Shown here one piece after another: positions 16,560 to 24,201 of a stretch of 48,973 nucleotides of DNA. Source of the stretch: Prevotella sp. (GTDB lineage Bacteria > Bacteroidota > Bacteroidia > Bacteroidales > Bacteroidaceae); contig JAGAXW010000002.1 in the NCBI GenBank assembly GCA_017847725.1, forward strand, positions 1 to 48,973. The letters run 5' to 3'. Made by a program: the position numbers and the translations under genes. Below the pieces are notes generated by a model. That model was not told the DNA's origin and made no database searches. It saw only the letters and a program-made list of their open reading frames with translations. Each line of letters begins with the position of its first letter. Position 1 is the stretch's first letter.

Positions 16560-17186
16560 CTACAATTGTCCTGCCTCGACCATCAGGACGACCCGCTCTG
16601 TCAGGCGGTCGACGCCCTCTGGGTCATACTCTTTCTTCAGGGATGCGCCGAAAGCCCAGGCAAAGGCCTGATAGAAGCCGGCACGCACAGGACCCAGGAA
16701 CGCCTGGATGAGTTCGTAGCTCGACGAGTGGCTCTCACGATAGATAAGTTTGATGAGCAGTTTGCCCTGCGAGTAGGTCAGCTTCTTCATGCGTGGCTTA
16801 TACTCCTTCATGACGCTCTTCTCCACTCGTTTCATGTGTTCATCCTTCGCCTTTTTGTCAGGCAGTGTCTCCAGATACTCTGCCGTCTCCATCATAATCA
16901 TGTTGGCCTCCTTGGCGATGGGCAGCACGGCCTTCACGTTCTTCACCAGTCGCATGTAGGCCCCCTGCTGCTTCTTGCTTTTGAACGTCACTGGCGGGAA
17001 GACGTAGACATTGTTCATCTCCATATATTGTATGCTGTCGCCGTCTTCCAGCACCTTGCCCACCTTCACGGTCGGCATAAAGGTCGGACTATCCATGTCG
17101 ACCTCCTCCGTCCGTTTGATGTCCTGCGCCACAGCGTCAGCCACCAACAGCCATAAGCCAAAAGCTAAAAAAAAGATTTGCTTCAC
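16560..17186 (-). CDS. DUF4294 family exported protein
   Basis: A 208-residue Bacteroidota-specific protein with signal peptide (KQIFFLAFGLWLLVADAVAQ) and the DUF4294 body: paired strands around VYVFPPVTFKSKKQQ, a helical basic centre, then KLIYRESHSSSYELIQAFLGPVRAGFYQAFAWAFG. Function unknown; probably periplasmic. It uses a GTG start at 17186-17184, which is needed to include the signal peptide. The start codon and the -7 box 4 nt upstream lie within a 16-bp sequence that recurs at 24186-24201. The gene is convergent with the M28 lipoprotein gene (12-nt gap). Confidence 0.85.
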   Translation of the reverse strand: MKQIFFLAFGLWLLVADAVAQDIKRTEEVDMDSPTFMPTVKVGKVLEDGDSIQYMEMNNVYVFPPVTFKSKKQQGAYMRLVKNVKAVLPIAKEANMIMMETAEYLETLPDKKAKDEHMKRVEKSVMKEYKPRMKKLTYSQGKLLIKLIYRESHSSSYELIQAFLGPVRAGFYQAFAWAFGASLKKEYDPEGVDRLTERVVLMVEAGQL

Positions 17187-17195
17187 GCGGCAAAG
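17180..17195. repeat. 16-bp direct repeat, left copy (flanks the R-M island)
   Basis: GCTTCACGCGGCAAAG, identical to 24186-24201. It spans the GTG start and part of the -7 box of the DUF4294 gene. Confidence 0.85.
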
Positions 17196-17198
17196 GTA
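17191..17198 (-). promoter_or_regulatory. -7 box of DUF4294 gene, leaderless
   Basis: Minus-strand TACCTTTG, only 4 nt from the GTG start, so the transcript should begin at or next to the start codon. Confidence 0.55.
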
Positions 17199-17253
17199 CG
17201 AAAAGTCGAGAGAAGAACAAAATAAACTTGTTTGTTTTTTCTTGCGAGACAGA

Positions 17254-17346
17254 GTAACTTCACACTATAAGGGCGAAGTTACGGAATAGTGATGCCGTCA
17301 ATGCCTGCATTTCTGCAATGACCGCCTCTTCCTTCGGTGATTGCAG
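17254..17346. repeat. Two inverted repeats in the mod 3' flank
   Basis: GTAACTTC (17254-17261) pairs with GAAGTTAC (17275-17282), and CTGCAATGACCG (17313-17324) pairs with CGGTGATTGCAG (17335-17346) with one mismatch. Neither has a U-tract. They lie between the mod stop and the DUF4294 promoter, where they may end or stabilise the mod transcript or mark the island edge. I see no gene in 17199-17371. Confidence 0.5.
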
Positions 17347-23800: not shown

Positions 23801-24006
23801 GTACTTTCAAAATCAGAGCCGCCGAACATCTGCATCTGTTCGTGGCGTTTAGGCACAATATCAATAGAGGTTGTAAATGGCCGACGTCCCTCTATGATGT
23901 GGGAATAGTCCAAATTCCCATCCATGTCCGTATCATAATACAAACGCGGTTCCTCGTATGGGTTATTTAATATCGGGCTTTTGGTAGTATCGTAAATTCT
24001 TGCCAT
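20845..24006 (-). CDS. Type III restriction enzyme, helicase-nuclease subunit (Res)
   Basis: 1053 residues. An SF2 helicase core: Walker [16 protein letters not shown] (about residue 167), DEAH-type Walker B [14 protein letters not shown] (about 320), SATPYYL, and a second RecA-like domain with [40 protein letters not shown]. The C-terminus holds a PD-(D/E)xK-like nuclease: PD at 976-977 and E995, but the position of the catalytic lysine reads S997 (IIEISGF), with K1007 nearby. Res uses ATP to translocate or switch between sites and cut foreign DNA when paired with Mod. It follows the HTH gene by 18 nt and precedes the BRO-like gene by 2 nt. Confidence 0.9.
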   Translation of the reverse strand: [1053 protein letters not shown]

Positions 24007-24024
24007 AATTACATTTCTTAAAAA

Positions 24025-24192
24025 CTATCCTTCTTCTGTCCAAAGTAAATCATCTACACGCACACCCAATATCTTTGATAACTGGATGAACATTTCTACA
24101 TTTGGCTGGGCGGCATTAGTCACCCATTTTGATATGACAGCTGGGTCTTTATCAAGGAGTTCCGGCAATCGCTTGTTGGTCATTCGCTTCAC
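24025..24192 (-). CDS. Truncated XRE-family HTH regulator of the R-M operon
   Basis: A short frame (52 residues from the ATG at 24183, or 55 from the GTG at 24192) ending in TAG at 24027-24025, 18 nt upstream of res. It contains the recognition part of a Cro/CI-type HTH (TNKRLPELLDKDPAVISKWVTN, followed by QPNVEMFIQLSKILGVRVDDLL). Relatives in Bacteroidota usually have about 12 more residues (an N-terminal helix like MNRIKVVLAEK) before TNK. Here those are replaced by the 16-bp repeat, which provides a GTG and a -7 box. It may autoregulate the operon, as restriction C proteins do, or be a damaged repressor. Confidence 0.65.
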   Translation of the reverse strand: MKRMTNKRLPELLDKDPAVISKWVTNAAQPNVEMFIQLSKILGVRVDDLLWTEEG

Positions 24193-24201
24193 GCGGCAAA
24201 G
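24186..24201. repeat. 16-bp direct repeat, right copy (flanks the R-M island)
   Basis: GCTTCACGCGGCAAAG, identical to 17180-17195. Beyond it both copies continue with TAC and GAAAA separated by one extra base here, so similarity reaches a little further. Confidence 0.85.

Follow-up and report, generated by a model that had tools for sequence, protein, structure and literature searches.

Genomic islands can be bounded by repeats, whether insertion sequences (IS) or MITEs. Putative mobile promoters have reportedly been described by Matus-Garcia et al. in 2012 and by van Passel et al. in 2014. Work on mobile promoters is also cited in PMC8049555. The locus described here lies in a 48,973-nucleotide stretch of a Prevotella sp. 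contig (the window) and bears some likeness to both. Like IS- or MITE-bounded islands, it consists of foreign DNA flanked by direct repeats; in contrast to them, the flanking repeats are promoters belonging to two subfamilies, no transposase was detected, and a terminal inverted-repeat or target-duplication pattern was not demonstrated. With putative mobile promoters it shares short similar promoter sequences that stand before unrelated genes and vary between relatives; unlike them, the Prevotella repeat is ~80 bp long with a palindromic core, is often arranged in tandem and is of the Bacteroidetes TAnnTTTG type, and two of its copies bracket a horizontally acquired restriction-modification (R-M) operon. 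Judged from sequence, the repeat appears to work like a mobile promoter whose cargo is a type III R-M operon. Our literature search, with subscription papers largely outside its scope, found no description of this repeat, which is weak evidence.

It is of practical interest, and still an open question, how restriction systems are expressed once a new host has acquired them. In the present case, compared with a close relative, the foreign R-M operon is missing its upstream DNA and the start of its regulator gene, and a host-type repeat promoter now lies in front of it. Of more interest is the repeat family itself, dispersed and turning over; in this common rumen genus it provides natural before/after pairs with which promoter turnover can be tested.

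The R-M block and its site in other species

The block and its host neighbours comprise the following genes (G, C and L numbers below denote genomes, contigs and loci).

16560..17186, minus strand: DUF4294 gene, left host neighbour (Pfam 8e-59)
17372..19993, minus strand: type III Mod, N6/N4 methyltransferase, 873 aa (Pfam N6_N4_Mtase 3.3e-32; PADLOC MTase_III 2.3e-168)
20006..20842, minus strand: BRO-N domain protein, PADLOC candidate family PDC-S13 (Pfam Bro-N; PADLOC)
20845..24006, minus strand: type III Res subunit, 1053 aa, BPTD_3080 family (NCBIfam NF046055 1023.9 bits, cut-off 800; Pfam ResIII)
24025..24192, minus strand: HTH (XRE-like) gene, 55 aa, 5'-truncated (Pfam HTH_3; 69 aa in L061)
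24431..26419, plus strand: HhH-barrel gene, right host neighbour (HHH_3 below its cut-off; homologues in 371 of 398 genomes, own included)

The four block genes run in the order HTH-res-BRO-mod as one apparent operon, and the Mod and Res family models, both of which the block passes, predict a type III R-M system with a BPTD_3080-type Res. It departs from the type III norm in two respects: a BRO-N gene (PDC-S13) separates res from mod, and a truncated HTH gene heads the operon. From its otherwise near-identical relatives it differs in the middle of Mod. Pfam searches of the four block proteins returned HTH_3, ResIII, Bro-N and N6_N4_Mtase and no integrase or transposase, in agreement with the initial annotation, which had also remarked on the low GC content of the block. 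We find 39-51% GC in 1-kb windows of the block versus ~54-63% in the several kb on either side; low GC recurs at the edges of the window (38-41% in the first 2 kb, 43-53% in the last 6 kb). A tyrosine recombinase of XerC/D appearance (Phage_integrase, Phage_int_SAM_1) is encoded at 11197-12105 on the minus strand; it lies beyond the block, to which it shows no visible connection.

The comparison covered 60 loci, including the window's own two; these loci were the best-scoring 30 from each of two homologue searches and hence not a random sample. Among the 58 loci of other genomes, DUF4294 and HhH are adjacent in 22 genomes, divergently in 14 (G138, G040, G033, G051, G067, G108, G025, G088, G240, G188, G353, G281, G349 and G225) and co-oriented in 8 (G074, G095, G081, G082, G372, G362, G388 and G326). 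The rest show only one of the two genes in the stretch compared, the genes lying on different contigs in, for example, G007, G055 and G106. None of the 58 loci has a res or mod match, which indicates that the island is absent from the DUF4294/HhH site in other species. This arrangement, together with the location of the operon elsewhere in relatives, bears out the earlier proposal that the block is an insertion between these two genes. DUF4294 and an M28 peptidase gene switch orientation between related species while staying neighbours (L009, L011, L012, L013, L006, L070, L093 and L094), in the arrangements M28> <DUF HhH>, M28> DUF> HhH> and <M28 <DUF HhH>, which suggests small local inversions.

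A res match at E 1e-100 or better was found in 23 of 398 genomes, own included. The Res protein is 97% identical to that of the window in three other genomes and 59-64% identical, in part over partial sequences, in the remaining 19; the named records among the close relatives belong to Prevotella MAGs, of which two carry the labels roe deer rumen and reticulum. The block DNA is 94.4% identical to L059 and L060 over ~5 kb and 93-96% identical to L061, except for a differing BRO stretch and the middle of mod, and the last 1.3 kb of mod is 88% identical to all three alike. These operons, with 93-96% identity over most of their length, sit at other loci in other Prevotella. In G281, which carries the L061 operon, the R-M genes are on contig C2, and DUF4294 and HhH are neighbours on C26, separated by a short gap without R-M genes. 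Since the DUF4294 and HhH proteins of G281 are only 87% and 59% identical to those of the window, and the operon lies on a different contig, the operon DNA identity of 93-96% indicates horizontal acquisition.

Within mod, DNA likeness to L059, L060 and L061 breaks off at 18671-19176, where GC falls to 39%, both sides being 88-96% identical; the target-recognition region of Mod thus appears to have been exchanged. The BRO gene of L061 (L061:9198-9608; L039 is the same record) is a shortened chimera of 136 aa with another N-terminal part, and around it res and the start of mod are >90% identical to the window.

The 16-mer and the promoter repeat at the block ends

The sequence features at the two ends of the block are as follows.

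17180..17195, minus strand: left 16-mer; -7 box end, 4-nt gap and GTG-Lys start of DUF4294 (from the sequence)
17191..17270, minus strand: P1-subfamily promoter repeat before DUF4294, with -7 box TACCTTTG at 17191-17198 (R1 81.7 bits, E 2.3e-16; among the 18 training sequences)
17274..17286, minus strand: TTCCGTAACTTCG, candidate -7 end of a further truncated tandem repeat unit, abutting the island remnant (from the sequence, by analogy with other tandem units)
17287..17357, minus strand: YhcG/DUF1016 nuclease gene remnant, 71 bp (87% over 71 bp to L061:12981-13051)
24186..24201, minus strand: right 16-mer; -7 box end, 4-nt gap and GTG-Lys start of the truncated HTH gene (from the sequence)
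24197..24280, minus strand: P2-subfamily promoter repeat before HTH-res-BRO-mod, with -7 box TAACTTTG at 24197-24204 (R1 71.9 bits, E 4.8e-14; training sequence)

The two copies of GCTTCACGCGGCAAAG, at 17180-17195 and 24186-24201, are identical and share their orientation, as the initial annotation had stated; in shuffles of the window such sites occurred 0.02 times on average, even with two mismatches allowed. They are the only exact copies in the assembly (2,388,429 bases, 80.6% complete), and an exact copy was found in none of the 397 other genomes of the genus sample. With up to three mismatches, the own genome contains 25 similar sites versus 19 for the reversed control, the closest third site having two mismatches. 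Read on the minus strand, the 16-mer is CTTTGCCGCGTGAAGC, in which the end of a -7 box is followed by the four bases CCGC and then by GTG AAG, a GTG-Lys start. The left copy overlaps the GTG start of DUF4294 at 17186, and its earlier identification as the start of that gene is correct. The description of both copies as host promoter and start sequence fails for the right one, which holds the GTG start (24192) of the HTH gene heading the R-M operon and so belongs, as promoter and start, to the island itself rather than to the divergent HhH gene.

Each 16-mer is the 3' end of one member of a dispersed promoter repeat. P1 and P2 are the only strong matches to this repeat in the 49-kb window; they lie at the two ends of the block, and each points toward its downstream gene. 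It is more likely that the 16-mer marks the place where repeat promoters meet a start codon than that it is a transposon scar. Two other origins were considered and rejected. The 16-mer is not a common motif, as TANNTTTGCCGCG occurs only three times in the genome, both 16-mer places included. A phage origin was discarded because the 17 matching stretches in viral contigs are about what, by our estimate, a random 16-mer might give in a collection of this size; the viral contigs yielded no res relative.

The repeat, ~80 bp in length, consists of a short hairpin or linker, GAACTTACT, a palindromic core ending in CTCG and then TTTTTTCGTAACTTTG; the P1 subfamily is marked by GAAGAAAAAACAAAC..GTTTGTTTTGTTCTTC and the P2 subfamily by GGAAATGAAAAGAAAAGC..GCTTTCCTTTTGCATTTC. 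The two align with 22 invariant columns over 18 sequences, which were hand-picked, mostly via a pattern fixing GTAnnTTTG and part of the core, so that some of this conservation reflects how the sequences were chosen. A covariance model (R1) built from them gave 39 matches in the own genome at E 0.01 (about one per 60 kb), 5 of which are training copies, and 12-139 matches per genome across 20 genomes, among at most 150 candidates scored in each. Independently of this model, a BLAST query of 24170-24425 had matches in 183 of the 398 genomes, counting the own one; among the matches listed, the matched part was the portion beside the 16-mer. For 24281-24425 the listed BLAST matches include none in the genus outside the own genome, and nothing corresponding to the ~115 bases at 24281-24395, which separate the P2 repeat from the HhH promoter, was seen in nine empty sites inspected. 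Rfam gave no match up to E 1 for 16900-24600. The repeat had no match in phage or plasmid records with a single L108 query, which covered the repeats in part and in which a low-complexity filter may hide them.

The B. fragilis -7 consensus TAnnTTTG is quoted in PMC7366714, and this Bacteroidetes -7 box is present in the repeat copies, for which we propose a putative promoter role. A long open reading frame (at least 100 codons, starts found mechanically) begins within 60 nt downstream of 17 of the 21 array-terminal copies, that is, the 30 best own-genome matches minus 9 inner tandem units, versus 4 of 21 on the reverse side. A start codon exactly 4 nt after TTTG recurs at the own-genome copies L132, L140, L148, L152 and L153, and similar promoter DNA precedes genes in one genome that are unrelated as judged from their first residues. 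Single-strand folds of the P1 and P2 copies of the window are no better than those of shuffles; among other copies, two P1 folds are strong (z of -3.2 and -4.2) and one P2 fold is unremarkable (z of -0.8). Tandem arrays of three repeats, with successive -7 boxes ~83 bp apart, are found in G000 at C36:23897-24141 and C26:30225-30470.

When the 16 positions around the -7 box were compared among 21 own-genome copies, the left/right pair agreed at 16/16 and the other 209 pairs at no more than 14/16 (mean 9.1), which argues for common descent of the two 16-mers. They might instead not be copies of each other, the 3' end of the repeat (CTTTGC) having met independently evolved starts, with the right copy retaining G.GAAG.GAATG from the HTH gene itself and acquiring two changes to yield GTGAAGC. 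Part of the 16-mer could indeed be the HTH gene's own sequence, as GTGAAGC shares five of seven bases with GAGAAGG of the HTH relative; over the longer stretch, GTGAAGCGAATGACC of the window HTH gene is identical to GAGAAGGGAATGACC of L061 at 13 of 15 positions. Similar starts also recur elsewhere in the genome, as CAGCGTGAAAG after L153, CAGCATGAATT after L152 and, with two mismatches, CTTTGCAGCGTGAATC. Because of these shared bases and recurring starts we give convergence some weight and regard it as somewhat unlikely, since the pairwise comparison speaks against it and no other exact copy exists in the 398 genus genomes, although 12-139 repeats were counted in each of 20 of them.

Broken ends and a proposed joining of the operon

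Comparison with L061 shows that the block ends in damaged genes on both sides. The L061 HTH gene encodes 69 aa, MERKRINRLKVVLAEKGMTNKQL (MERKRINRLKVVLAEKG-MTNKQL...); upstream of it lies an integrase gene with Arm-DNA-bind_5 and Phage_int_SAM_5 and without a catalytic domain, and downstream of mod lies an intact YhcG nuclease gene (Pfam YhcG_C, DUF1016_N). Relative to L061, the window HTH gene has lost at least 14 codons, codons 15-17 are altered or replaced, and the upstream frame is closed. Its HTH_3 match, with the query taken from ATG, begins at profile position 10 rather than at position 5 as in L061, so that part of the first helix is probably missing. At the other end, 13 bp after mod, the sequence jumps to the 71 bp from the middle of YhcG, which is followed by the candidate truncated unit (TTCCGTAACTTCG) and then by the P1 repeat. 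The block ends are broken genes and hence not the termini of an element.

The initial annotation had put forward a duplication of the target upon insertion. If a transposon-like event had cut the DUF4294 start with a 16-bp stagger, the island would be 17196-24185, and both the exact direct repeats in the same orientation at the two ends and the occurrence of the site without the island in other species fit such an event. Its ends would then have to be the interior of an HTH codon and a promoter repeat minus exactly its last five bases; they coincide with eroded genes (HTH and YhcG) instead of intact element ends, and Pfam found no recombinase among the four block genes. In 13 of 14 genomes, with one tie, DUF4294 promoters from other species gave a higher score with the left flank, which would be foreign in this model, than with the right flank. 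This local alignment comparison used 15 hand-picked promoters (one genome twice), several of its margins are small, the L015 promoter carries a weak repeat itself, and the argument is weakened by the likeness of P1 to promoters in general. The broken genes at both ends and the lack of a recombinase make target-site duplication a poor explanation, which we consider very unlikely, and the claim is not upheld. In a comparison with empty sites of other species, of the kind that the initial annotation had suggested, no site with a single copy of the 16-mer was found; an empty site from the same species was likewise not found. In nine empty sites inspected, the DUF4294 start is GTGAAACG three bases after TTTGC in seven and GTGAAAAG at that place in one, the ninth differing; the ancestral start, as far as these sites reflect it, probably resembles the 16-mer without being identical to it.

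We also considered an assembly artefact, in which the metagenome assembly would have merged contigs that do not belong together at a copy of the dispersed repeat. In its favour, the draft genome comprises 56 contigs (80.6% complete), repeats of this family occur about once per 60 kb, and the contigs of both L059 and L060 end inside the HTH gene. The P1 and P2 copies have only 16 exact bases in common, and the block lies with its flanks on one 48,973-base contig among the usual neighbours, M28 and DUF4294 on the left and HhH on the right, which speaks against an artefact; we consider one very unlikely.

The reading we prefer, to which we give about an even chance, is that the acquired operon was joined through promoter-repeat recombination and microhomology, with the result that the DUF4294 start was duplicated and the operon received a promoter. 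Incoming DNA bearing the operon would have recombined with the host chromosome within the repeat at the mod-distal end. At the other end, microhomology between the DUF4294 start (GTGAAGC.AAT) and HTH codons 15-18 (GAGAAGGGAATG), which share G.GAAG..AAT, could have served for the second join. The host stretch between the two join points, the 16-mer itself, would be left on both sides. DUF4294 would thereby retain promoter P1, and the R-M operon would come to lie behind P2 with a GTG beside the -7 box, both replacing the upstream DNA and HTH start that L061 has. Such a route needs no island recombinase and would account for the broken ends, for a repeat on either side and for the 16-bp overlap. 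The differences between P1 and P2 outside the -7 box exclude that one promoter was simply duplicated, and the joining route is a reconstruction; like it, the question of which promoter came first and transcription from P2 are matters of inference. The alternative offered by the initial annotation, recombination between short homologous promoter regions, is supported in part by the finding that the 16-mers lie at the ends of members of one promoter-repeat family. More broadly, palindromic promoter cassettes ending at the -7 box may form a large family in Prevotella that is still mobile, and may act as joints splicing foreign defence operons into the host chromosome directly behind a host promoter and start codon; we hold this generalization to be doubtful.

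Turnover of the repeat and its relation to R-M genes

The repeat also adjoins this R-M island at another location. In G367 (L060/L171), copies lie between the island and yicC, and the upstream one is weaker and apparently truncated, as on the DUF4294 side in the window. At the location of the L061 operon in G281 there is no strong repeat at the ends, the nearest match (29 bits) being ~1.7 kb from the HTH gene. Near more distant res genes the repeat was found at 3 of 19 genus loci, one copy facing away; this is not clearly above genome repeat densities, so the repeat does not seem to be a general landing site for R-M systems, and a general association between the two is unsupported.

The initial annotation had considered a start codon and -7 box to be an unusual integration point. 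The location stands, and it is less odd than was supposed, as the promoter repeat found there is itself present at some orthologous promoters and absent from others. G225 (L089) has a P1 copy in its HhH promoter, between two -7 boxes, and the five relatives compared (G281, G353, G349, G138 and G188) have one box there; no repeat was found at the HhH promoter of L087, L084, L088, L085 or L073. Across the 58 DUF4294/HhH loci of other genomes, repeat matches below E 1e-4 occur in four (L089, L071, L081 and L008). Upstream of yicC, among 30 loci, such matches stand in promoter position in L171, L182 and L174; L183 has a match ~300 bp away in the opposite direction, and L179 and L175 have weaker ones. 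These comparisons point to presence and absence of the repeat at orthologous promoters.
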